A stretch of DNA of 64,000 bases from NCBI GenBank assembly GCA_021774335.1, contig JAJFJD010000002.1, positions 124,001 through 188,000 of the forward strand. Reading direction: 5' to 3'. A program made the translations under genes and the position numbers. The notes beneath the pieces are model-generated. The model saw only the letters and a program-made list of their open reading frames with translations, was not told where the DNA came from and searched no databases. This stretch comes from Alphaproteobacteria bacterium (GTDB lineage: Bacteria > Pseudomonadota > Alphaproteobacteria > UBA8366). This document shows positions 2,856 through 14,195 of the stretch, piece after piece. Position 1 is the stretch's first letter. The number at the start of each line of letters is the position of its first letter.

Positions 2856-3956
2856 CTAGGCCTCGACGATCACTTCATCGCCGTCGATGGTGAAGCGGTG
2901 CGGGAAATCCTCTGACACCCATTCCATGAATTTTACCGCGTCGTCGAATCGCGGGTCGCCGTTTCGCAGGACTTCCGGCCGCAGCTGCGGGTCGATCAGG
3001 ACCGGCAGGAAGGACACGCGCTTGACGCCGTCCGCTCCCAGCACCGCCTTGGCGATCAGGCTGCGCTTCGCGTCGGAACCATAGGCCAGGTTGGGATAGT
3101 CCGGGTCGAGCTCGACGCTGTACTCGCGCTCGAACTTCTTGCCCTCGGCGGATGATTTCTCGGTCCCGGTCATGATGAAGTTGCTGAGGCTGTAGAAGCA
3201 CACCTTGCCGTCATAGGCGCCGATCGCCTTCGGCACATGCGCGTGGTGACCGAGAATCAGGTCGGCTCCTGCATCGAAGGCCGCTTTGGCGGCGATCGGC
3301 TGATAGTCGGCAATCATGCGGGGGATGAAGTGGATGCCCCAATGCAGCGATACGACCACGACCTGCGCCTGTTTCTTCGCAGCCGCGATATCCTCTTCCA
3401 TGTTCGCCAAGTCTTCCTCGTAGGGCACGGTCACGACTTTCGGCGGCACGCCTGCCTGGTAGTCGAAGGGTTCGTAATAGGTATGGGCGCGCAAGGGGGC
3501 GACGCCGATCTTGTTGGGGCCGGCCGCGTAGCCTTCGCGCAGGATCGAGCAGTAGGCGAGGAAGGCCACCGTCACGCCCTTGCGCTCCAGGATGGCGGGT
3601 TGCCGGGCTTCCTCCAGGGTTCGGCCGCCGCCGACGACGGCGATTCCTTGGTCGCGTAGCAGATCGATGGTGTCGAGCAGGGCGTCGCCGCCCCAGTCCA
3701 TAGCGTGGTTGCTTGCCACCGACAGCACGTCGAAGCCGCAGTCGCCGAAAATCGAGGCCATATGCGGGGCGCAGCGGCTGTGCCCGCCGCCGGAATGGAT
3801 CTGCAGGTTGCCGCGCTCGGAATAGACCCGTTCGCACTGCCCGAAGCGGATATCCCCGGCCGCCAGCGTCGGCTTGGCCAGCGCGCCGAAGTCCTCCAAC
3901 GGTTCCCGAATGGGGCCGACGTCGCCGCAGCCCAGTAATACAATACCGTCATCCAT
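2856..3956 (-). CDS. CapA-family metallophosphoesterase-like protein
   Basis: A 366-residue CapA/PgsA-type protein. Family motifs in order: ...LLGCGDVGP near the N-terminus, VASNHAMDWG (the SNNHxxDxG type motif), a HWG motif (LHWGIHF) and GHHAHVPKAI, ending with the usual SLSNF segment. Unlike capsule and poly-gamma-glutamate proteins it has no signal peptide or membrane anchor, so it is predicted to be cytoplasmic. The ATG at 3956 is preceded by AAGGAGAA at good spacing; the longer in-frame start at 4025 has no such support. The role is unknown. It is convergent with the dioxygenase gene and divergent from lepB. Confidence 0.82.
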   Translation of the reverse strand: MDDGIVLLGCGDVGPIREPLEDFGALAKPTLAAGDIRFGQCERVYSERGNLQIHSGGGHSRCAPHMASIFGDCGFDVLSVASNHAMDWGGDALLDTIDLLRDQGIAVVGGGRTLEEARQPAILERKGVTVAFLAYCSILREGYAAGPNKIGVAPLRAHTYYEPFDYQAGVPPKVVTVPYEEDLANMEEDIAAAKKQAQVVVVSLHWGIHFIPRMIADYQPIAAKAAFDAGADLILGHHAHVPKAIGAYDGKVCFYSLSNFIMTGTEKSSAEGKKFEREYSVELDPDYPNLAYGSDAKRSLIAKAVLGADGVKRVSFLPVLIDPQLRPEVLRNGDPRFDDAVKFMEWVSEDFPHRFTIDGDEVIVEA

Positions 3957-4136
3957 TGCCCGGTTCTCCTTGCCGATTACGTCATTTCCCCGCCGATTGG
4001 GCGGATCGCCGCCGTTCGGCCTCAAATCCTACCACAGAGCGGCTATTGGCCTTGGCGGCGGCAATTTCCGCTCCCTTGACAGCAGGCGGCAGGACTGCCC
4101 ATATCACGCCGACACTCGGGATAATGGCGGAATTTA

Positions 4137-4952
4137 ATGGCATCCAATAATGCTGGCGACGGGCCCGGCGGCGGCAAGTCTACGGTACAGTCCGACGCTG
4201 CGGAAACGCCTATGCAGAAGGCGGGCGGCGGCCTGCTGGAAACGCTGCGGACGATCATCTATGCGGTCCTAATCGCGCTGGTGGTGCGGACTGTTGCTTA
4301 TGAGCCCTTCAACATTCCATCCGGGTCGATGATCCCGACGCTGCTTGTCGGCGATTACCTATTCGTTTCCAAGTTCTCCTATGGATATAGCCGGTACTCG
4401 CTACCGTTCGGTCTGCCGTTGTTCAAGGGCCGAGCGATGGAAACGCCGCCGACGCGTGGCGACGTGGCGGTCTTCAAGCTGCCGACGGATAACAGCACGG
4501 ACTATATCAAGCGCGTCATCGGCCTGCCGGGCGACCGTCTCCAGGTCACCAAAGGACACCTGCATATCAACGGCAAGCCGGTTCAGAAACAACGTATCGA
4601 AGACTTTTCGCTCCGGAGCCCGCTTGGCGGTATTCGCAAGGTGGCGCAGTATCTCGAAACGCTGCCGAACGGCGCGTCCTATCGTGTCATCGAGGCCGAC
4701 ACCGATTTTGGCTCGATGGACAATACCCGCGAATACACGGTGCCCAAGGGCCACTATTTCGTCATGGGCGACAACCGTGACAATTCCCTGGACAGCCGGG
4801 CGCTCAATCACGTGGGCTTCGTCCCGATCGCGAATTTCGTTGGCCGCGCGCAATTCCTGTTCTTCTCGACCGACGGCAGCGCTCGGATTTGGGAAGTGTG
4901 GAAATGGCCGTTTTCAGTGCGTTACGGACGGCTGTTCAACGGTATCGATTGA
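4137..4952 (+). CDS. lepB: Signal peptidase I
   Basis: A 271-residue inner-membrane serine protease that cleaves signal peptides of exported proteins. One N-terminal membrane segment (about residues 38-55) is followed by PSGSMIPT with catalytic S64, DYIKRVIGLPGD with general-base K125, and the late MGDNRDNSLDSR box. It begins the conserved block lepB-rnc-era-recO seen in many alphaproteobacteria. The first ~30 residues are a polar, Gly-rich cytoplasmic tail. Confidence 0.97.
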   Translation: MASNNAGDGPGGGKSTVQSDAAETPMQKAGGGLLETLRTIIYAVLIALVVRTVAYEPFNIPSGSMIPTLLVGDYLFVSKFSYGYSRYSLPFGLPLFKGRAMETPPTRGDVAVFKLPTDNSTDYIKRVIGLPGDRLQVTKGHLHINGKPVQKQRIEDFSLRSPLGGIRKVAQYLETLPNGASYRVIEADTDFGSMDNTREYTVPKGHYFVMGDNRDNSLDSRALNHVGFVPIANFVGRAQFLFFSTDGSARIWEVWKWPFSVRYGRLFNGID

Positions 4953-5000
4953 TCGCGATGGCCGCGCGCCGCCTTTCGGGACGGGTTTCCGCAGCCGGTA

Positions 5001-5687
5001 ATGCGGCTTACACTTAGTGATATGATCAACCAAGTTGCGGAAGTGCTCGGACACGCCTTTTCCACGCCTCAGCTGCTGGAAGAAGCGTTGACCCATCGCA
5101 GCGCCACACCGCGGCGGGCGGAAGGCTATGAGCGGCTTGAATTTCTCGGCGATCGCGTTCTCGGTCTTGTGGTGACCGATATGCTTTTGGCGGCTTTTCC
5201 CGACGAACAGGAGGGCGCGCTGGCGCGACGGTTGGCGGCGTTGGTCTGTCAGGAAACCCTGGCCGACGTCGCCCGCGAGCTCGGCCTGGCCCCGCATATC
5301 CGCCTGAGCCGAAGCGAAGCTGACTCCGGCGGTCGCGAGAACGACGCGATCCTGTCCGACGTCTGTGAAGCGGTCATCGCGGCGATCTATTGCGACGGCG
5401 GGCTGGATACTGTCCGACCATTCATCGAACGCCACTGGGCTGGGCGTCTCGCCGCGGCCATCGCACCGCCCCAGGACGCCAAGACGGCATTGCAGGAGTG
5501 GGCGCAGGGGCGCGGATTGCCGTTGCCTGACTACAGCATTGTCGACCGGAAAGGTCCCGATCACGCGCCGGAGTTCACGGTATCGGTTTCCGTGAAAGGC
5601 AAACCTGCGACGGAAGGCACGGGCTCATCCAAGCGCGCTGCCGAACAGATGGCGGCCAGCCGTCTCATGGCGACGGTGACGGAATGA
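5001..5687 (+). CDS. rnc: Ribonuclease III
   Basis: A 228-residue double-strand-specific endoribonuclease for rRNA and mRNA processing. The signature ERLEFLGDRVLG (residues 44-55) carries the catalytic E47 and D51, DVCEAVIAAIYCDGG carries the second acidic pair, and the C-terminal ~70 residues form a dsRNA-binding domain ending in the KRAAEQMAA helix. The stop overlaps the era start by 4 bp (ATGA), indicating translational coupling. Confidence 0.97.
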   Translation: MRLTLSDMINQVAEVLGHAFSTPQLLEEALTHRSATPRRAEGYERLEFLGDRVLGLVVTDMLLAAFPDEQEGALARRLAALVCQETLADVARELGLAPHIRLSRSEADSGGRENDAILSDVCEAVIAAIYCDGGLDTVRPFIERHWAGRLAAAIAPPQDAKTALQEWAQGRGLPLPDYSIVDRKGPDHAPEFTVSVSVKGKPATEGTGSSKRAAEQMAASRLMATVTE

Positions 5688-6595
5688 CGATGCCTCCCCC
5701 AGAAGAAAGCCGGTTCGGTTTCGTCGCGGTACTCGGCGCGCCGAACGCTGGCAAGTCCACGCTGATCAACCGGATGGTCGGCGCGAAGGTGACGATCGTT
5801 TCCCCGAAGGTGCAGACGACCCGTTCGCGCGTATTGGGCATTTCGATCCATGGAACAAGCCAGATCGTTTTCATCGACACGCCGGGCATCTTTGCCCCGC
5901 GCCGGCGTCTCGACCGGGCCATGGTGGCCGCCGCGTGGCAAGGCGCCGCCGAGGCCGACGAGGTCTGCTTGTTGGTCGACGTCGCGCGGGGTCTGGACGA
6001 TAATGCGAAACGGATTGTCGAAGGCCTGAAAAAGGAGAACCGCACGGCGATCCTGGTCCTTAACAAGATCGACAAGGTGAAACGCGAGATATTGTTGGCT
6101 CTCAGCGCCGCGTTGAACGAGTCAGGCGTTTTCAGCGAGACCTTTATGGTGTCGGCGCTCAAGGGCGACGGCGTTGACGACCTACACGAGTATTTCGCGA
6201 AAAAGGTGCCGTCCGGCATCTGGCATTACCCGGAAGATCAGATTTCCGATCTGCCGCAACGGCTGCTCGCCGCCGAGGTGACGCGCGAAAAGCTGTTCAT
6301 CAAGACCCATCAGGAAGTGCCTTATGCGGTTGCCGTCGAAACCGAGTCATGGGAACCGTTCAAGGACGGCAGTGTCCGGATCGATCAGGTCATTTATGTG
6401 CAGCGGGACAGTCAACGCCCGATCATCCTTGGCAAGGGCGGCCAATTGATCAAACAGATCGGCGCCGAGTCGCGCCAGGAACTCGGCATGTTGTTCGACT
6501 GCAAGGTCCATCTGTTCCTGCGGGTGAAGGTTCGGGAAAAGTGGATCGATAGCCGCGAGCATTTCCAGATGTGGGGCCTCGATCACAACGCCTGA
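5684..6595 (+). CDS. era: GTPase Era
   Basis: A 303-residue GTPase needed for 16S rRNA maturation and 30S assembly. Walker A GAPNAGKST is at residues 18-26, the G3 motif is DTPG and the G4 motif is NKID. A C-terminal KH domain follows (GKGGQLIKQIGAESRQEL). It is translationally coupled to rnc by an ATGA overlap. Confidence 0.97.
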   Translation: MTMPPPEESRFGFVAVLGAPNAGKSTLINRMVGAKVTIVSPKVQTTRSRVLGISIHGTSQIVFIDTPGIFAPRRRLDRAMVAAAWQGAAEADEVCLLVDVARGLDDNAKRIVEGLKKENRTAILVLNKIDKVKREILLALSAALNESGVFSETFMVSALKGDGVDDLHEYFAKKVPSGIWHYPEDQISDLPQRLLAAEVTREKLFIKTHQEVPYAVAVETESWEPFKDGSVRIDQVIYVQRDSQRPIILGKGGQLIKQIGAESRQELGMLFDCKVHLFLRVKVREKWIDSREHFQMWGLDHNA

Positions 6596-6646
6596 CGCCG
6601 TCGATTTCCGGCATGCCCGGAATTTTTGAGGTAAAGTCGCGGCGTC

Positions 6647-7381
6647 ATGGAATGGTCCGATCACGGCATTGTCCTTTCCGCGCGTAAGCACGGCGAAACA
6701 GCGGCGATTCTCTCGGTGCTGACCTCCGAGCACGGCCGCCATGCGGGGCTTGTGCGGGGCGGTGCCGGGCGGCGGCAGCGCGGCGTGTTGCAGCAGGGTA
6801 ATTTCGTCGCGGTGACCTGGCGGGCACGCCTGGAGGAGCATCTCGGCGCGTTCACCGTGGAAATGCTGCACAGCATTAGCGCACAATGGCTCGACGATCC
6901 CGGCCGGCTTGCCGCCCTCAGCGCCGCTACGGCCATCGTCGATTTCGCGGTGCCTGAGCGCGAGCCTGACGTCAATATTTACAGCGGATTGCGGACTCTA
7001 ATTGCCGCCCTGGACGAAGAAGATTGGGGGGCGGCCTACGCACGCTGGGAATTTGCGCTTTTGGGTGAATTGGGCTTTGGCCTCGACCTGTCGGCCTGCG
7101 CGGCCACGGGACAGACCGACGACCTCGCCTATGTCTCGCCGAAAACCGGCCGGGCGGTGTCGCGCGCGGCGGGACAGGTTTATCACGATAAACTGCTGCC
7201 GCTGCCGGGCTTTCTGCTGGATGATAGCCCGGAAACGGCCGATCAGGTCGTCGAGGGACTGCGGCTCACCGGTTACTTCCTTGACCGGCGTCTCTTCGCA
7301 CCTCACCAGCGGCAACTGCCCGACGTCCGCGCACGGCTTGCCGCACGGCTCGCCCGCGCTGCATTGGCGGAGAGAAACTAG
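6647..7381 (+). CDS. recO: DNA repair protein RecO
   Basis: A 244-residue RecO of ordinary length: an N-terminal OB fold (MEWSDHGIVLSARKHGE...), then the helical domain. RecO loads RecA at gaps as part of the RecFOR pathway. It is the last gene of the lepB-rnc-era-recO block. The following deacetylase gene begins 1 bp after its stop, so transcription probably continues into it. In many relatives parC follows directly; here about 4.6 kb intervene. Confidence 0.95.
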   Translation: MEWSDHGIVLSARKHGETAAILSVLTSEHGRHAGLVRGGAGRRQRGVLQQGNFVAVTWRARLEEHLGAFTVEMLHSISAQWLDDPGRLAALSAATAIVDFAVPEREPDVNIYSGLRTLIAALDEEDWGAAYARWEFALLGELGFGLDLSACAATGQTDDLAYVSPKTGRAVSRAAGQVYHDKLLPLPGFLLDDSPETADQVVEGLRLTGYFLDRRLFAPHQRQLPDVRARLAARLARAALAERN

Positions 7382-7382
7382 C

Positions 7383-8027
7383 ATGCCGCAGGTGACGCTT
7401 AGCTTCGACAACGGGCCGGATCCCGATGTGACGCCGCGGGTCCTCGATGTCCTCGCGAAACACGATCTACGCAGTTGTTTCTTCGTGATCGGCCGCAAGC
7501 TGACGGATCCCGCCGCGCGGAAGATCGCCGAGCGTGCCCATGCCGAGGGCCATTGGATCGGCAACCACACCTGGACTCACGAGACGCCGCTCGGCCGTCT
7601 CGATGATCCGGCCGTACCGGACCGCGAAATCGGTGCGACCCAACGCGAGATCGGCGATCTAGCGCATCCCGACCGCTGGTTCCGGCCATTCGGTGGCGGC
7701 GGCAAGATCGGACCGTGGTTGATGAGCACCGGCGCCCGGGATTTCCTGACAGATGGGGGCTACAGCGTCGTCATCTGGAATTCGATCCCGCGGGATTGGG
7801 AAGACCACGATGGCTGGCCGGTGCGGGCGGTGGAGCATTGTGCGGCGCACAATCATACGCTTGTCGTCCTGCATGATTTCGTCGCGCCGGCGATGGCCAA
7901 TCTCGACCGCTTCATCGGGACGCTTGCCGACCAGGGCTATGTGTTCAGCCAGGAATTTCCAGACGACTGCGTCCTGATTCGGCGGGGTATCGCGACCCGG
8001 CCGCTCGACGATTACGTGCAGTCTTGA
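7383..8027 (+). CDS. Polysaccharide deacetylase family protein (NodB fold)
   Basis: A 214-residue protein with the NodB-type SFDNGPDPD motif at residues 7-15 and metal-binding HTWTH (H62, H66). Most active family members have two aspartates (TFDDGP). Here the second is Asn (D9-N10), so the metal site or activity may be altered. No signal peptide is seen, which suggests a cytoplasmic protein. It begins 1 bp after the recO stop and is probably expressed with it. Confidence 0.85.
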   Translation: MPQVTLSFDNGPDPDVTPRVLDVLAKHDLRSCFFVIGRKLTDPAARKIAERAHAEGHWIGNHTWTHETPLGRLDDPAVPDREIGATQREIGDLAHPDRWFRPFGGGGKIGPWLMSTGARDFLTDGGYSVVIWNSIPRDWEDHDGWPVRAVEHCAAHNHTLVVLHDFVAPAMANLDRFIGTLADQGYVFSQEFPDDCVLIRRGIATRPLDDYVQS

Positions 8028-8113
8028 ATTCCAGCGGCGTCACATAAATCAATTGTTAATCCGTAGTGTTGAAGCTTGCACTTTCCAGCAGGGCGGATAG
8101 GGTGCCATTGATC

Positions 8114-8737
8114 ATGAGAAACCGGTTTCGCAAGGCGTATCGTATCGTGATGCTCACCGTCGTTGGCGCCATGCTGACGATGGCAACGGGGCCGTCCGTG
8201 AACGCCCATCCGCATGTTTTCATCGACAACATCTCCTATGTGCAGTTCGAGAACGGCAAGATCACCGGCTTGCGCTTCCATTGGACCTTCGACGACATCT
8301 TCAGCTTTCTGCTGTTCGAGGATTTCGACAAGGACAAGACCAAATCCTTCGACGATGACGAGGTTCAGGCGCTGCGCGACGGCGCGTTCGAAGCCTTGAA
8401 GGAATTGCAGTATTTCACACATATCCGGATCGACGGAAAACTCCTGCCGGTGCCGCGCGTCGTGGATTTCAAGGCGATCGCGAAGAACGGCCGCGTCAGT
8501 TATTCCTTCACCGTGCCGTTCGACAAACCGGTTGATCCGCGCAAGAGCAACCTGAGTTTCGGCGTGTATGACGCGACCTTCTACGTCTCCGTCGTCCATG
8601 ACGCGATCGACCCGGTGCGATTCACCGGCGATAGCAGCCAAGCCTGCCATTTCAAGCTGGGCGAGGACAAAGAGAATCCCATCTACTATGGCATGGTCTT
8701 CCCGAAGAAGGTCGATGTGGTTTGCGCAACGAGCTGA
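8114..8737 (+). CDS. DUF1007 family exported protein, likely metal-associated
   Basis: A 207-residue protein with a signal peptide (Arg-rich start, hydrophobic residues ~12-25, cleavage near the NAHPHVF junction) and the family's characteristic HPHVFIDN start of the mature protein. DUF1007 proteins are commonly found next to NicO-type nickel/cobalt transporters, exactly as here, where the transporter start follows 1 bp after this stop. A periplasmic metal-binding accessory role is inferred from that pairing. An earlier in-frame start at 8066 is possible but would add 16 residues before the signal peptide. Confidence 0.82.
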   Translation: MRNRFRKAYRIVMLTVVGAMLTMATGPSVNAHPHVFIDNISYVQFENGKITGLRFHWTFDDIFSFLLFEDFDKDKTKSFDDDEVQALRDGAFEALKELQYFTHIRIDGKLLPVPRVVDFKAIAKNGRVSYSFTVPFDKPVDPRKSNLSFGVYDATFYVSVVHDAIDPVRFTGDSSQACHFKLGEDKENPIYYGMVFPKKVDVVCATS

Positions 8738-8738
8738 A

Positions 8739-9722
8739 ATGATCCGCTTCGCCGCGATTTCCATTCTGACAGTTCTGGTTTTCTGCGTTTCCAGCGCCGG
8801 GGTGGCGCAGGCGTCGGACGCGCGTAATCCATTCGCTCCGAAATCTACTGAAACTCAAACGTCGGCGGCTCCGCCCGGTGCGCTCGAGCGGTCCTATCGC
8901 GGGCTTCTGCTTAAGATTGCCACGGTGCAGGGCGACCTGAACAAGGATTTGCACGCCAAGCTGAAGGAAATCGAGACGACGGGGGCGATCCTGCCGGCGC
9001 TGATTGTGATCGGCGTAGCATTCCTATACGGCGTCTTTCACGCCGCCGGGCCGGGCCACGGCAAGTTCATCGTCACCAGTTATTTCCTGGCCCGTGATGG
9101 GCCCGTGTCGCACGGCATCATCATGAGCGGTTTGATCGCGCTGACGCAGGCGCTTTCGGCAATCATCATCGTCTTCGTTCTGGTCTTCGCGATGGGGTTT
9201 GGGCGCATTCAGGTGCTGGGCTATGCCGTCACCATCGAACTCGTCAGCTACGCGCTAGTGATCCTGCTCGGGCTCTACATGGCCTGGGGGGCGTTCCGCG
9301 GTAAGGATTGCGATCATTCGCACGGACCGGGCGACAACCATCATGGCCACGATCACGACCACCCGGACGAGGATGGCCCCTGGTACCGGCAAGGCCGCGA
9401 CATGATCGTCGCGGCGGTTGCCGCGGGCATCCGGCCGTGTAGCGGCGCGATCATCCTGTTGCTGTTCACCATGGCGAACGGGCTGTATGCCGTCGGTATC
9501 TTTGGCGCGTTGGCCATGGCGTTCGGTGTGGCGATCACCGTATCGGTCGTTGGAATGCTGGCCATCGGCGCGCGGCGCACGATCATCCATGCCACCGACG
9601 CCCACGGTGGAGTACAGCCGCTGATCTTGCGTGGGGTAGGGATGCTGGGCGCGCTATTCGTGGTGACGATCGGCGCGTTGCTGTTCCTGGCCGCCTTGGA
9701 GCGGGTTCCCGGTCTTTACTAG
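8739..9722 (+). CDS. NicO-family nickel/cobalt transporter (RcnA/HupN-like)
   Basis: A 327-residue membrane protein with a cleavable-looking N-terminal signal segment. It carries the family signature HAAGPGHGKFIVTSYFLA, six or so membrane spans, and a His/Asp-rich cytoplasmic or periplasmic loop (CDHSHGPGDNHHGHDHDHP) that is typical of Ni/Co efflux proteins of the RcnA type. Pairing with a DUF1007 protein supports metal export or homeostasis. The 3' end overlaps the convergent CDF gene by 4 bp. Nickel versus cobalt specificity cannot be read from sequence. Confidence 0.88.
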   Translation: MIRFAAISILTVLVFCVSSAGVAQASDARNPFAPKSTETQTSAAPPGALERSYRGLLLKIATVQGDLNKDLHAKLKEIETTGAILPALIVIGVAFLYGVFHAAGPGHGKFIVTSYFLARDGPVSHGIIMSGLIALTQALSAIIIVFVLVFAMGFGRIQVLGYAVTIELVSYALVILLGLYMAWGAFRGKDCDHSHGPGDNHHGHDHDHPDEDGPWYRQGRDMIVAAVAAGIRPCSGAIILLLFTMANGLYAVGIFGALAMAFGVAITVSVVGMLAIGARRTIIHATDAHGGVQPLILRGVGMLGALFVVTIGALLFLAALERVPGLY

Positions 9723-10366
9723 TCCGCGTTGCCCGCCGACGCCTCGGCATCGGCGCGGTCCATGCGCAACTCCGTCGTCGCCTGGCGGATGATCTTCACC
9801 GACGACTGCAGGAACAGTGCCGCCATCGCGGCGGCGACGATCAGATCGGGCCAGGCGCTGCCGGTCACCACCACCACGCCGGCGGCGGCGATCACGGCAA
9901 GGTTGCCGATCGCGTCATTGCGGCTGCACAGCCAGACCGAGCGCACATTCGAATCGCCGTCGCGGAACTTCAGCAGCAACAACGCGCTGACAACGTTTGC
10001 GGCGAAGGCGAGGAAGGCCACGCCGCTCATCATCACTACGTTGGGCACACCGAGCACGAAAGTCTGGTAGATCGTCCACCCGAGAACGCCGACACCCATT
10101 GCGGCGAGCGAGACGCCCTTCATCAACGCTGCCGTCGCCCGCAGACGCACCGACCTGCCGATGACATAGAGGCTGATCCCGTAGGTCAGCGTATCGCCGA
10201 GGAAATCGAGGGCGTCTGCCTGGAGAGCCGTGGACCCGGAGGCGGCACCGGCCGACATCTCGATGACGAACATTACCGCGTTGATGGCAATGACGATCCA
10301 GAGGACCCGCCGGTAGGCCGGCGACGATCCGTCGAAGGACACGTTGTGGTCACAGCAACCCGCCAT
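9719..10366 (-). CDS. Cation diffusion facilitator-type transporter, short form
   Basis: A 215-residue membrane protein: only the transmembrane core of a CDF transporter, with no C-terminal cytoplasmic metal domain. The CDF metal-site pattern is visible as ALQADALDFLGD (helix 2, DxxxD) and SRNDAIGN (helix 5, NDxxxN). Such short forms are often controlled by a divergent MerR regulator and move Zn, Cd or Co. Here the MerR gene starts 93 bp away on the other strand, and a matching MerR promoter faces this gene. The N-terminal MAGCCDH motif could also bind metal. Confidence 0.88.
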   Translation of the reverse strand: MAGCCDHNVSFDGSSPAYRRVLWIVIAINAVMFVIEMSAGAASGSTALQADALDFLGDTLTYGISLYVIGRSVRLRATAALMKGVSLAAMGVGVLGWTIYQTFVLGVPNVVMMSGVAFLAFAANVVSALLLLKFRDGDSNVRSVWLCSRNDAIGNLAVIAAAGVVVVTGSAWPDLIVAAAMAALFLQSSVKIIRQATTELRMDRADAEASAGNAD

Positions 10367-10417
10367 AAAGGGCTCCGGAAGGACGGTTTCGGACAGGTCT
10401 TGCTTTCTAGGGTGGGA

Positions 10418-10448
10418 TACTAATATCTACAGTGACTGTAGGTTCAAG
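10418..10448 (-). promoter_or_regulatory. MerR-type promoter/operator driving the CDF transporter
   Basis: On the minus strand a -35 box TTGAAC (10448-10443) and a -10 box TAGTAT (10423-10418) are separated by 19 bp. The spacer holds a perfect dyad CTACAGT-C-ACTGTAG (10442-10428). The over-long 19-bp spacer with a dyad inside it is the hallmark of promoters untwisted by metal-bound MerR proteins. Confidence 0.88.
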
Positions 10449-10459
10449 AGGAAATCGAC

Positions 10460-10915
10460 ATGGACGATAAAGCCCTCTCGATTGGCGTTCTGGCGCGGGA
10501 AACCGGCTGTAAGGTGCAGACGGTCCGCTATTACGAGCAGGTCGGCCTGATGCCGGCACCGCTGCGGACGTCCGGTAATCAGCGCCGCTACGGCCCGGCG
10601 CATATCGCCCGCCTCGGGTTCATCCGGCACGCACGCGAGTTGGGGTTTCCGCTCGACCAGATCCGCGAGATGCTGGCCTTGAGCGACGACCCGGCGCGTT
10701 CCTGTGCCGATGTGGACCGCATCGCCAGCGAACATCTAGCGGCGGTGGAGGCGCGGATTGCCCGCCTGAACGCGCTGAAAACCGAGTTGGAGCGGATGGT
10801 TCAGGGCTGCCGTCATGGACAGGTCGGCGACTGCCGTGTCATCGAGGTTCTGTCGGACTATACCCACGACCATTGCCTCACCCCCGACCACGGCAAACCG
10901 GAAAGTCGGGCGTAA
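10460..10915 (+). CDS. MerR-family metal-responsive regulator (for CDF transporter)
   Basis: A 151-residue MerR protein: N-terminal winged helix with SIGVLARETGCKVQTVRYYEQ, dimerisation helix, and C-terminal cysteine loop GCRHGQVGDC plus a C/H-containing tail (THDHC). The cysteines and histidines suggest a Zn/Cd/Pb-type sensor. It is divergent from the CDF gene, and the operator between them fits a MerR promoter. The RBS AAGAGGAAA precedes the ATG. Confidence 0.9.
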   Translation: MDDKALSIGVLARETGCKVQTVRYYEQVGLMPAPLRTSGNQRRYGPAHIARLGFIRHARELGFPLDQIREMLALSDDPARSCADVDRIASEHLAAVEARIARLNALKTELERMVQGCRHGQVGDCRVIEVLSDYTHDHCLTPDHGKPESRA

Positions 10916-10922
10916 GACGGCG

Positions 10923-11141
10923 CTAGCCCGGTTCGTCGACGCTGCAGCACCCGCCGCCGGTCTGGATCGGCGGGCAGGGGACGTCGCCGTAGGAGCAGAA
11001 GACGCAGCAATCGCCTTGCTTCGGCTTGAGCAGCGTCTTGCAGGACCGGCATTCATGGAAATAGACGCAGGCGTTCGTCGGCATCTCCTCGCGGCTTTGA
11101 TGGCCGCAGTCGGGGCAGGTGATCGTCGAGAAAAGGTCCAT
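10923..11141 (-). CDS. GDCCVxC domain-containing small protein
   Basis: A 72-residue cysteine-rich protein with 12 Cys. Two zinc-ribbon-like pairs (CPDC; CRSC) are followed by the family motif GDCCVFCSYGDVPCPP and a final CC. This family is usually found next to mercury transport genes, and some relatives carry selenocysteine in the motif; here all positions are TGC cysteine codons. Its ATG overlaps the merF stop by one base (TGATG), so it is translationally coupled to merF. It probably binds Hg(II) or another thiophilic metal in the cytosol; that is inference from context. Confidence 0.9.
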   Translation of the reverse strand: MDLFSTITCPDCGHQSREEMPTNACVYFHECRSCKTLLKPKQGDCCVFCSYGDVPCPPIQTGGGCCSVDEPG

Positions 11142-11347
11142 CAATTTGCCTCCCGGCGTTTCCACAGCGCACAGGCCGTTAAGCCAAGGAAGATCGCCAG
11201 CGACGGCAGCAGCACGTAGTCGAGAATCCCGACCAGCGACGACAGGCCGATCGCGCCGAACAGGATGACCAACACGGGTGTGAAGCAGCAGATCGCGGCT
11301 ATGACGCTGCCGATGATGCCGGTGCGCAGAAGGTTCTTGTTGGTCAT
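11141..11347 (-). CDS. merF: MerF-like mercury uptake membrane protein
   Basis: A 68-residue protein with two membrane helices. The first carries the vicinal cysteine pair in ICCFTPVLVILFGAIGLS, the diagnostic MerF/MerT Hg(II)-binding site. The C-terminus is shorter than in classical plasmid MerF and lacks the second Cys pair usually found there. MerF carries Hg(II) across the inner membrane to a reductase, but no merA is visible nearby. It is first in a two-gene unit with the GDCCVxC protein, behind a MerR-type promoter. Confidence 0.87.
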   Translation of the reverse strand: MTNKNLLRTGIIGSVIAAICCFTPVLVILFGAIGLSSLVGILDYVLLPSLAIFLGLTACALWKRREAN

Positions 11348-11410
11348 GGGCCGGTCGGTCCGATCTCAGGGTTCGTGGGATTGGCTGCCGTCTTGAACGG
11401 GCTGGCAAAC

Positions 11411-11441
11411 ACCATACAATCTGTAGCGACTACAGATTCAA
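11411..11441 (-). promoter_or_regulatory. MerR-type promoter/operator driving merF
   Basis: On the minus strand TTGAAT (-35, 11441-11436) and TATGGT (-10, 11416-11411) are 19 bp apart. A perfect 9-3-9 dyad, with left arm AATCTGTAG at 11418-11426 and right arm CTACAGATT at 11430-11438, occupies the spacer and edge. The architecture is the same as the CDF promoter about 1 kb away, but the arms differ, so the two MerR proteins probably have separate operators. Confidence 0.88.
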
Positions 11442-11452
11442 GGGCGAAATTC

Positions 11453-11896
11453 ATGACGGAAAAGAAATCGTTGGCGATCGGCGAGGTGTCGCGGACATCC
11501 GGCTGCAAGATCGAGACGATCCGCTATTACGAGCGAATCGGTCTGCTTTCCCCGCCGCCGCGCACCGCCGGGCGTCACCGGCTGTATTCGCGGGACCATG
11601 TGAAGCGGTTGGTCTTTATCCGCCGCGGCCGAAACCTGGGATTTTCGCTCGATGAAATTCGCAGCCTGTTGGGCCTGACGGGTGAGGGGGCGCCGAATTG
11701 CGAGCAGGTACGCGAGATCACGCTGGCGCATGCCCATGATATTCGGCAGAAAATCGACGATCTGGAGCGAATGGACCGGGCATTACGGCAACTGGCCGAG
11801 CAATGCGAAGACGGTGAAGCGATGGTTTGCCCGGTCATCGAGGCGCTTTTCACCGCCAAGGAGGATAGGGCGGCGGCGGACCGCGACAGCCCCTAA
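11453..11896 (+). CDS. merR: MerR-family regulator of the merF unit
   Basis: A 147-residue MerR: LAIGEVSRTSGCKIETIRYYERIGLL winged helix, long dimer helix and C-terminal loop EQCEDGEAMVCPVIEAL. With the Cys near residue 82 (APNCEQV) it has a three-cysteine set comparable to the Hg(II) site of classical MerR, though the last two Cys are 8 rather than 9 apart. It is divergent from merF with the operator in between. The ATG at 11453 was preferred over an upstream in-frame start at 11375 because that one would run through the operator. Confidence 0.88.
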   Translation: MTEKKSLAIGEVSRTSGCKIETIRYYERIGLLSPPPRTAGRHRLYSRDHVKRLVFIRRGRNLGFSLDEIRSLLGLTGEGAPNCEQVREITLAHAHDIRQKIDDLERMDRALRQLAEQCEDGEAMVCPVIEALFTAKEDRAAADRDSP

Positions 11897-11972
11897 CCAC
11901 AACCCCTTGCGTCTGTGACCGCGCGTGCTATCAATATCTCGTGTCTCACGAACGGGGGTTTTGAACGGACAC

Positions 11973-14195
11973 ATGGCGAAAGCGAAATCGACGGGCGAGA
12001 TTCGTCCGGTCCCATTGGCTGACGCGCTTGGCGAGCGGTATCTGTCCTATGCGCTGTCGACGATCATGGCGCGGTCGCTGCCGGACGTGCGCGACGGCCT
12101 GAAACCGGTGCATCGGCGTCTGCTGCATGCGATGCGGGAATTGCGCCTGAATCCGGAGTCCGGGTTCAAGAAATGTGCGCGTATCGTCGGCGACGTGATG
12201 GGCAAATACCATCCGCATGGCGATGCCGCGATCTACGATGCGATGGTCCGGCTGGCGCAGGATTTCGCGGTGCGCTATCCGCTGGTGGACGGTCAGGGCA
12301 ACTTCGGCAACATCGACGGCGATAACGCGGCGGCGATGCGCTACACCGAAGCGCGCATGACCGATGTGGCGAAGCGGCTGCTCGAAGGCATCGACGAGGA
12401 CGCGGTCGACTTTCGCGGCACTTATGACGGCGAGGGCGACGAGCCTGTCGTGCTGCCGGCGAATTTCCCGAATTTGCTGGCCAACGGCGCGGCGGGGATC
12501 GCGGTCGGCATGGCGACGAGCATTCCGCCGCATAACGTGGCCGAGATCTGCAACGGACTGCTGCATCTCATCAAGTTCCCGAAGGCGACCGTCGCCAAGC
12601 TGGTCGATATGATTCCGGGGCCCGATTTCCCGACCGGCGGCGTGTTGTGCGAAAACCGCGACGCCATCGTCGAGGCCTACAAGACCGGGCGCGGTAGCTT
12701 CCGGGTACGCGCCAGCTATGAGGTCGAGAAGATCAAGGGCGGCGGCTATCAGGTGATCGTCACCGGTATGCCGTATCAGGTGCAGAAGGCGAAGCTGATC
12801 GAGAAGATCGCCGAGCTGATGCACGCCCGCAAGCTCACCATGCTCGGCGACGTGCACGACGAATCCACGACCGAGGTTCGCCTCGTGCTCGAACCGAAAA
12901 GCCGCAACGTCGATCCGGAACACCTGATGGAAAGCCTGTTCCGGCAGAGCGATCTGGAATCGCGCTTTTCCTTGAATATGAACGTGCTGGATCAGGGCGT
13001 GACGCCGCGGGTGATGAACCTGCGCGAAGTCCTGCAGGCCTTCCTGGATCACCGGCACGACGTGTTGGTCCGGCGCAGCAAGCACCGGCTGGAGAAGATC
13101 GAGCATCGCCTGGAAGTCCTGGGCGGGTTGCTGATTGCCTATCTCAACCTCGACGAGGTGATCCGGATCATTCGCGAGGAGGACCATCCCAAGGCCGAAT
13201 TGATCAAAGCGTTCAAACTCACCGAAGTGCAGGCGGAAGCCATCCTGAACATGCGCTTGCGGCATTTGCGCAAGCTCGAAGAGATGGAAATCCAGACCGA
13301 GCACGATGCCCTGACCGAGGAACGCAAGGGCCTGAAGAAGCTGCTCAAGGACGAGAAGCTGCGCTGGAAGATGGTTGCGGGCGAGATCACCGAGATCAAG
13401 AAGGCCTTCGGGCCGGATACCGAACTTGGCCGCCGCCGCACTAAACTGGGCGACGCGCCATCGGCCGTCGTGATCCCGCTGGAAGCGATGATCGAACGCG
13501 AGCCGGTAACCGTTCTCTGTTCCGAAAAGGGCTGGATTCGCGCCGCGCGCGGGCATCTCGCGGAATATGGCGATGTGAAATACAAAGAAGGCGACCGCCA
13601 TCGCTTCGCCTTCCACGCACAGACCACCGATAAGCTCATCATGTTCGCGACCAATGGCCGCTTCTATACGATGGGCGTCGATAAATTGCCGGGCGGGCGC
13701 GGCTTCGGCGAGCCGCTGAGCCTGATGATCGATCTTGGCAACGAGCACAACGTGGTCGCGCTCAGCGTGCACGATCCGGAACAGAAACGCATCGTCGCGT
13801 CGAGCGACGGGCGCGGCTTCGTGGTCACAGAGAAAGACGTGGTGGCGCAGACGCGCGGCGGCAAACAGGTGCTCAATCTCGGCGCCAGTGCCGAGGCGAC
13901 CGCCTGCACGCCGTTCAAGGGTGATTCGGTCGCGGTTGTCGGTGACAATCGCAAACTGCTGATCTTTCCCGCCGACGAACTGCCGGAGATGACCCGCGGC
14001 CGGGGTGTCATCCTACAGCGTTACAACAAGGGCGGGCTGGCCGACGTGACCTCCTTCACGATGAAAGAGGGTCTGTCTTGGCAGATCGGCGACCGCACGC
14101 GGACCGAGACGAAGCTGGAGAACTGGGTCGGCAAACGCGCCCAGGCGGGCCGGGTTGTTCCGCGCGGCTTCTCGAAGAATAATCGCTTCCGGTGA
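11973..14195 (+). CDS. parC: DNA topoisomerase IV subunit A
   Basis: A 740-residue type IIA topoisomerase A subunit that decatenates chromosomes together with ParE. The quinolone-region helix ([16 protein letters not shown]), the catalytic tyrosine Y124 in MRYTEARM, a long coiled-coil gate and C-terminal beta-pinwheel repeats (GGRGFG, GRGFVV, TRGRGV) are visible. It lacks a GyrA-box (QRRGGKG), favouring ParC over GyrA. The ATG at 11973 gives the usual N-terminus; an upstream start at 11925 is possible but less likely. Confidence 0.95.

Follow-up and report, generated by a model that had tools for sequence, protein, structure and literature searches.

The window, a 64,000-nucleotide stretch of an alphaproteobacterial contig (JAJFJD010000002.1, positions 124,001 to 188,000), carries a MerR-controlled operon in which merF, a gene of a mercury importer family, is followed by the gene of a small cysteine-rich protein named for its GDCCVxC motif, and not by merA, the gene of mercuric reductase. 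A survey of the class revealed that the absence of merA is the rule for this merF-GDCCVxC unit, which is a recurring operon form, and that its operator is of the type found at the merA loci of the class. On the evidence of sequence and gene context, the best reading, to which we give somewhat better than even credence, is that Hg(II) would be taken up by MerF and captured by the GDCCVxC protein, which has cysteine or, in some relatives, selenocysteine at its putative metal site.

Neither the window nor the two 20-kb contig flanks covered gave a match in translated searches (tblastn) whose queries were MerA (two), MerB-like proteins (two), a flavin reductase, MerT and MerP, in agreement with an earlier note on this DNA, which had seen no merA or merB in the window. 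GDCCVxC, merA and MerF were then tallied, counting only matches over cut-off (70 of the 72 genomes with a GDCCVxC match and 42 of the 143 with a MerA match), in 387 genomes of the Alphaproteobacteria, here called the class. The tally comprised 78 GDCCVxC genes in 70 genomes, merA in 42 genomes and 51 MerF genes, of which 32 are within 5 kb of merA, 18 are within 90 bp of GDCCVxC and none is near both; the single MerF gene near neither is located at a contig end. No GDCCVxC gene of the class (0/78) lies within 5 kb of merA. Eighteen genomes, spread over many families, have the merF-GDCCVxC pair, and 15 of them have no merA over cut-off, the other three being the window genome, G090 and G092. 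The missing reductase, remarked on in the earlier note, is thus no oddity of the window genome but is shared by most genomes with the unit. At the level of whole genomes, GDCCVxC and merA co-occur above chance (merA in 15/70 genomes with GDCCVxC and in 27/317 without; Fisher p 0.005, uncorrected for kinship), which is in keeping with a pressure common to both rather than with a single shared operon.

The promoter facing merF (promoter 2) has the 19-bp spacer typical of MerR control and contains operator 2, a perfect 9-3-9 dyad with the core CTGTAG-N3-CTACAG. Scored at up to one mismatch, this core was found at 28/32 merF-merA loci in the class versus 2 of 333 shuffled loci, and at the window and five other merF-GDCCVxC loci; one merF-GDCCVxC locus (L076, genome G006) was tallied under "other" in this census, the set L067-L144 comprising 77 places in the class plus G006. 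Where the core is perfect, a TTG at -35 and a TA at -10 lie 19 bp apart in 20/22 merF-merA loci and in all six merF-GDCCVxC loci; six control dyads were found at 0 of 191 loci. Operator 2 thus represents the mer box used in this class. The classical site CCGTAC-N4-GTACGG, tried as the expected box of the class, was rejected, being present at 3/32 merF-merA loci and 7/333 shuffled loci; the consensus published for proteobacterial MerR reads TCCGTAC-(4)-GTACGGA (PMC1526738). Because operator 2 is the box of the merF-merA loci, Hg(II) is supported as the likely inducer of promoter 2.

The regulator points to the same metal. The top models for MerR2 are the Hg MerR family (TIGR02051) and the Bacillus Hg MerR (4ua1). 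Its score against the TIGR02051 equivalog, 124.3 bits, is under the curated cut-off of 150.85, which is usual in the class, since eight merA-linked MerRs of the class scored 117-137 bits, all under that cut-off. Alignment with 4ua1 and the merA-linked MerRs revealed the three metal-site cysteines; the protein ends in C-X7-CP, its cysteine pattern is that of the merA-linked MerRs, and it has no His/Cys tail like that of MerR1, the neighboring regulator. The earlier assignment of MerR2, merF and GDCCVxC to a mercury-type unit is upheld by this pattern and by the box: a mercury importer stands under a MerR-type promoter with a perfect dyad and an operator of the class merA type, with no merA in the operon.

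The identities of both products are certain from their sequence scores (Table 1). The window motif reads GDCCVFC, and by its NF041374 score the protein is a full family member; with 11 cysteines in 72 residues it is a putative metallothionein-like metal sink. Nine of the 11 cysteines are invariant in 62 aligned sequences. Two alignments were used, A1 comprising 29 of the L067-L144 loci and the window, and A4 comprising 48 of 80 named loci, 13 of 55 loci on viral-labelled contigs and the window. An in-frame UGA was found in 5 of 203 motif-bearing loci (214 searched), four times at C25 (L113, L121, L129 and L283) and once at C46 (L134). Of the four class genomes with such loci, three have SelB over cut-off and one, G114 (the genome of L134), does not. 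The family corresponds to the selenoprotein family "hypothetical protein GOS_B", described with "no functional evidence" by Zhang and Gladyshev in 2008 (PMC2398784); the available part of a 2026 review leaves the name unchanged and gives no function (PMC13188914). In the literature searched, the name GDCCVxC was not found, nor by title any paper tying together a selenoprotein, MerF and mercury, although absence from print is not established in either case. The AlphaFold model is of middling confidence (predicted local distance difference test 80.2, predicted template modelling score 0.62) and matches short zinc-ribbon-like pieces, e.g. LysW at E 0.78, which is suggestive only; phmmer brought up no genuine PDB match for the protein.

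The MerF of the window has the first cysteine pair (ICCFTP), matches the PDB MerF structure 2m67 at E 1.1e-20 and ends before the C-terminal cysteine pair. This second pair is present in 0 of 19 GDCCVxC-linked MerF proteins (two frames cut short) versus 13 of 32 merA-linked ones (two cut short), with a Fisher p of 0.0008 on rows that are not independent. Such a pattern fits a cytosolic thiol role handed over from the MerF tail to the GDCCVxC protein.

Computation established the gene identities, the promoter geometry, the mer box in common and the mutual exclusion of merA and GDCCVxC next to merF. We infer from these data Hg(II) as the inducer, the direction of transport, Hg(II) binding, its storage or hand-over and a zinc-ribbon fold, in the following scheme. 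MerR2 bound to operator 2 would keep the 19-bp-spacer merF promoter silent in the absence of bound Hg(II), and on binding it would untwist that promoter. MerF and GDCCVxC would be made together, their translation probably being coupled because the GDCCVxC start codon overlaps the merF stop (TGATG). MerF would carry Hg(II) across the inner membrane by its single cysteine pair, and the cytosolic GDCCVxC protein would replace MerA as the acceptor. Within it, C9/C12 and C31/C34 may form a zinc-ribbon-like scaffold, leaving C25, C45, C46, C49 and C56 for another role, presumably binding of the ion, which might then be stored or handed on to one of the cell's own thiols or flavin reductases. Selenocysteine at C25 in some relatives is as expected of a soft-metal ligand. 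The GDCCVxC protein as the end point of the pathway, proposed in the earlier note, stands as a candidate, with a sink or relay the best-supported option.

Several observations weigh against uptake by MerF and capture by GDCCVxC. Most GDCCVxC genes of the class (60/78) do not adjoin MerF, and some stand beside P-type ATPase or DsbD-like genes. The box is present in only 6 of the 18 merF-GDCCVxC loci, and a MerR is near 8 of the 17 assessed. The operator core alone leaves room for another metal, because Pseudomonas aeruginosa CadR binds the same core. In the MerR tree, whose bootstrap is not settled, MerR2 falls within no supported group. The GDCCVxC model has no match in the PDB at E < 0.001, and 19 merA-linked MerF proteins also have no CC pair (one with CxxC, two cut short). 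Without reduction or export, the quantity of sink would set a limit to uptake, and the whole merF-GDCCVxC-merR2 unit is missing in a sister genome, G003.

The unit might instead be half of an ordinary mer system, in which MerF imports Hg(II), a merA elsewhere reduces it and GDCCVxC serves as an accessory chaperone. The genome search for merA that the earlier note had proposed did give a result: the window assembly (63 contigs totalling 5.4 Mb, completeness 96.7%, contamination 7%) contains a single merA that exceeds the TIGR02053 cut-off, on contig C13 together with a MerB-like gene, and a piece of merA on C15; merA is also present in the unit-bearing genomes G090 and G092. Contig C15 (3.7 kb, GC 0.477, tetranucleotide correlation 0.262) is set apart from the host and looks foreign. 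Contig C13 is 14.5 kb long and ends inside merA. It carries a second ppiD-like gene, which has 30% identity to the query-matching copy on C16, and six other genomes of the family that were tested have one near-full-length ppiD-like match each. None of ten other genomes of the family has a merA over cut-off. The C13 merA is doubted because of the divergent ppiD-like copy and the lack of merA over cut-off in the other family genomes, and the contig is probably not part of the window genome, although its composition is not separable from that of the host (tetranucleotide correlation 0.576, within the 0.53-0.73 of window segments). The merA sought is thus in the assembly but probably on foreign DNA, which leaves the suggestion of a reductase elsewhere weak; since most genomes with the unit are in any case without merA, we regard the half-system account as unlikely.

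Another metal is quite unlikely, a little more so again. MerR2 would in that case be a CadR-type sensor and the unit would answer to Cd(II), Zn(II) or Pb(II), with GDCCVxC a metallothionein-like zinc-ribbon protein. The precedent is the Cd/Zn-responsive CadR of P. aeruginosa, whose preferred site AACCCTGTAGTTACTACAGGGTT has the CTGTAG-N3-CTACAG core and which also drives zrd, a small double zinc-ribbon gene behind such a box (PMC12301328), and the adjacent circuit of the window pairs a CDF exporter with a CadR-like regulator. Set against this are the presence of the box at nearly all merF-merA loci, the best matches of MerR2 to mercury regulators and its lack of a His/Cys tail, and the fact that both MerF and MerT belong to families of Hg transporters. 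The idea that a CTGTAG box necessarily means cadmium was dropped, as the box stands at merF-merA loci, and is kept only in the form of this CadR-type alternative. Least probable, and in our judgment very improbable, is that the unit is the decaying remainder of a mer operon after loss of merA. Decay is suggested by sister genome G003 (locus L145), whose ParC is 97% identical to that of the window and which keeps the CDF gene, MerR1 and an identical operator 1, with the same promoter 1 geometry but TAGGAT. Between merR1 and parC (L145 about 7970-8110), 53 bp of the parC flank can be aligned to the GDCCVxC 3' end (score 56; maximum of 500 shuffles 27) and a further stretch to apparently the last merR2 codons. 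Because these ends remain, it is probable that the ancestor carried the unit and that G003 lost it through a deletion of ~0.85 kb. The merF frame also has a TAG in 2 of the 18 class loci (G090:C21:64229-64372 and G264:C1:2540696-2540869). Decay is, however, hard to square with a pair that recurs across so many families, with the invariant cysteines, or with the window itself, where the merF, GDCCVxC and merR frames are all open and promoter and operator are intact. Genome G090 also has a separate merF-merA locus.

Uptake by MerF and capture by GDCCVxC also draw support from importer genes next to GDCCVxC at other loci and from a Sphingobium cassette under the same box. In the class, the open reading frame (ORF) just upstream of GDCCVxC (n=69) matched Pfam MerT in 10 cases, MerF in 9 and MerC in 4, the picker taking the longest ORF and so missing some MerF (9/69 versus 18 in the proximity tally). 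Among the named loci (n=77), it matched MerT at 29 loci and an HMA domain at 25, counts that are biased because the 80 named loci, the best of >594 matches, were chosen by likeness to the window GDCCVxC query. Behind a MerR, merT-merP-GDCCVxC is found at class loci L072, L090 and L124. In the named set, alphaproteobacterial locus L160 (Sphingobium sp. DEHP117) has merR, a merT-like gene, GDCCVxC, a MerB-like gene and a flavin reductase under the same CTGTAG box, and gammaproteobacterial contig L202 has merR, merT, merP, an HMA-GDCCVxC fusion, an unassigned ORF and a flavin reductase. Both flavin reductases have glutathione reductase as top model and are under the MerA cut-off. Near GDCCVxC at four Bacteroidota loci, ORFs match MerA at 1e-27 to 1e-41 and are candidate MerA; outside the class and in the named set, the separation of GDCCVxC from reductases is not strict.

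Further features of these loci were observed. The L160 cassette (3670-10200) is flanked by two identical inverted copies of a 410-residue recombinase-like gene and is like a composite mobile element. In L202 (1262-1756, + strand), the GDCCVxC part of the fusion comes after a domain containing GMTCMDC, and from this motif the domain looks like HMA (MerP-like). Relatives of GDCCVxC are also found on 55 IMG/VR contigs labelled viral (L229-L283), and in none of 50,697 phage records; these contigs could represent host or plasmid DNA included among the viral ones.

Tentatively, and with slightly less than even credence, GDCCVxC (GOS_B) could be the terminal part of a second and widespread mer branch, in which an importer (MerF, MerT or MerTP) is paired with a Cys/Sec acceptor rather than with MerA, so that cytosolic capture of Hg(II) replaces its volatilization. 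Were this true, an orphan selenoprotein family would gain a function, and the presence of Hg import genes in bacteria with no mercuric reductase would be explained. Mercury import would then not need to commit a bacterium to reduction, a common operon form storing or relaying Hg(II) instead, and merF or merT in environmental surveys would not be evidence of volatilization. It would also touch on the puzzle of MerB without MerA, reported for about half of merB genomes (PMC8261052), because MerB-like genes occur beside GDCCVxC with a flavin reductase that is not MerA.

The region 9719-11896 consists of two divergons side by side, the CDF gene opposite MerR1 on the left and merF with GDCCVxC opposite MerR2 on the right (Table 1). 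Adjoining the CDF gene, positions 8066-9722 on the + strand encode a DUF1007 protein and then a NicO-type nickel/cobalt transporter, and this neighborhood is a small metal-handling cluster.

Table 1. Features of the two divergons and the adjacent gene, in window coordinates
Feature	Position	Strand	Basis
Short CDF-family cation exporter, 215 residues, target of promoter 1	9719-10366	-	Pfam PF01545, 55 bits, cut-off 26.6
Promoter 1, towards the CDF gene: TTGAAC (10447-10442), 19-bp spacer, TAGTAT (10422-10417)	10417-10447	-	Read from sequence
Operator 1, CTACAGTGACTGTAG, perfect 7-1-7 dyad CTACAGT-G-ACTGTAG	10427-10441		Sequence
MerR1, CadR/PbrR/ZntR-like metalloregulator	10460-10915	+	PF09278 and PF13411
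GDCCVxC protein, 72 residues, 11 Cys	10923-11141	-	NF041374, 107.8 bits, cut-off 40
MerF, 68 residues	11141-11347	-	NF033565, 100.4 bits, cut-off 50
Promoter 2, towards merF: TTGAAT (11441-11436), 19-bp spacer, TATGGT (11416-11411)	11411-11441	-	Read from sequence
Operator 2, AATCTGTAGCGACTACAGATT, perfect 9-3-9 dyad, core CTGTAG-N3-CTACAG	11418-11438		Sequence
MerR2, mer-type metalloregulator	11453-11896	+	Best NCBIfam TIGR02051, 124.3 bits
parC, directly right of merR2	11925-14195		ORF list; ParC named from its sequence

Both 19-bp-spacer promoters are directed at the transporter gene and not at the regulator. Each operator is unique in the window at up to two (operator 1) or three (operator 2) mismatches, matches arising in 3/100 and 1/100 dinucleotide shuffles, respectively; in the 5.4-Mb assembly, operator 2 has only two further sites at up to three mismatches, with three mismatches each. 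The dyads, CTACAGT-N-ACTGTAG and (AAT)CTGTAG-N3-CTACAG(ATT), have the hexamer pair CTACAG/CTGTAG in common with the order swapped, so that the operators are distinct but closely related in design; the two regulators are 39% identical over 136 residues. The earlier description of two separate MerR circuits with perfect, differing dyads in 19-bp-spacer promoters is therefore confirmed by gene layout, promoters and dyads, with the shared hexamers added.

MerR1 has, by alignment, a C79-type cysteine, a C-X7-C element and a His/Cys-rich tail. Its best PDB match is CadR (6jgv, E 4.8e-28), and it scores 116.8 bits against the CadR-PbrR model TIGR02047 (cut-off 151.45, not reached) and 118.5 bits against the CueR model, likewise under cut-off. 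By tree path it is nearest to L145 and L295, the latter within a merF-merA locus. The CDF exporter scores 76.6 bits against TIGR01297, below the cut-off of 82.35, and phmmer found no match to it in the PDB. We read MerR1 and operator 1 as a separate Zn/Cd-type circuit for the CDF exporter, because CadR is the closest relative, the tail is rich in His/Cys and a short CDF appears to be driven. Three more loci (L134, L176 and L182) have the merR1-CDF pair in the neighborhood of GDCCVxC, and at L085 a MerR1-like gene is near a larger CDF.

Compared with known systems, the left circuit resembles the CadR/PbrR/ZntR regulators with a CDF exporter, with MerR1 closest to CadR but below all NCBIfam cut-offs and with the operator CTACAGT-N-ACTGTAG; its exporter is similarly short to CdfX of Cupriavidus metallidurans, described as having no cytoplasmic domain (PMC11580412). 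The right unit shares with CadR-zrd of P. aeruginosa a small Cys-protein gene and the same box core, and differs in that the inducers there are Cd and Zn and the available part of that account mentions no MerF; Zrd is described there as two CXXC-N10-CXXC ribbons and is likened to GDCCVxC by description only. Like the MerF of 2m67, the window MerF would be a two-helix importer with the first cysteine pair, but the C-terminal pair is absent. The GDCCVxC protein belongs fully to the GOS_B/NF041374 family by score, and its mer context proposes a function, whereas the two papers searched on that family give none. In the Gram-negative mer operon (e.g. Tn501/Tn21), merR and the operator are accompanied by an Hg importer and merA. 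The window unit likewise has a divergent MerR, a 19-bp-spacer promoter and an Hg importer as its first gene, but it differs in carrying GDCCVxC in place of merA and the operator CTGTAG-N3-CTACAG rather than TCCGTAC-(4)-GTACGGA.

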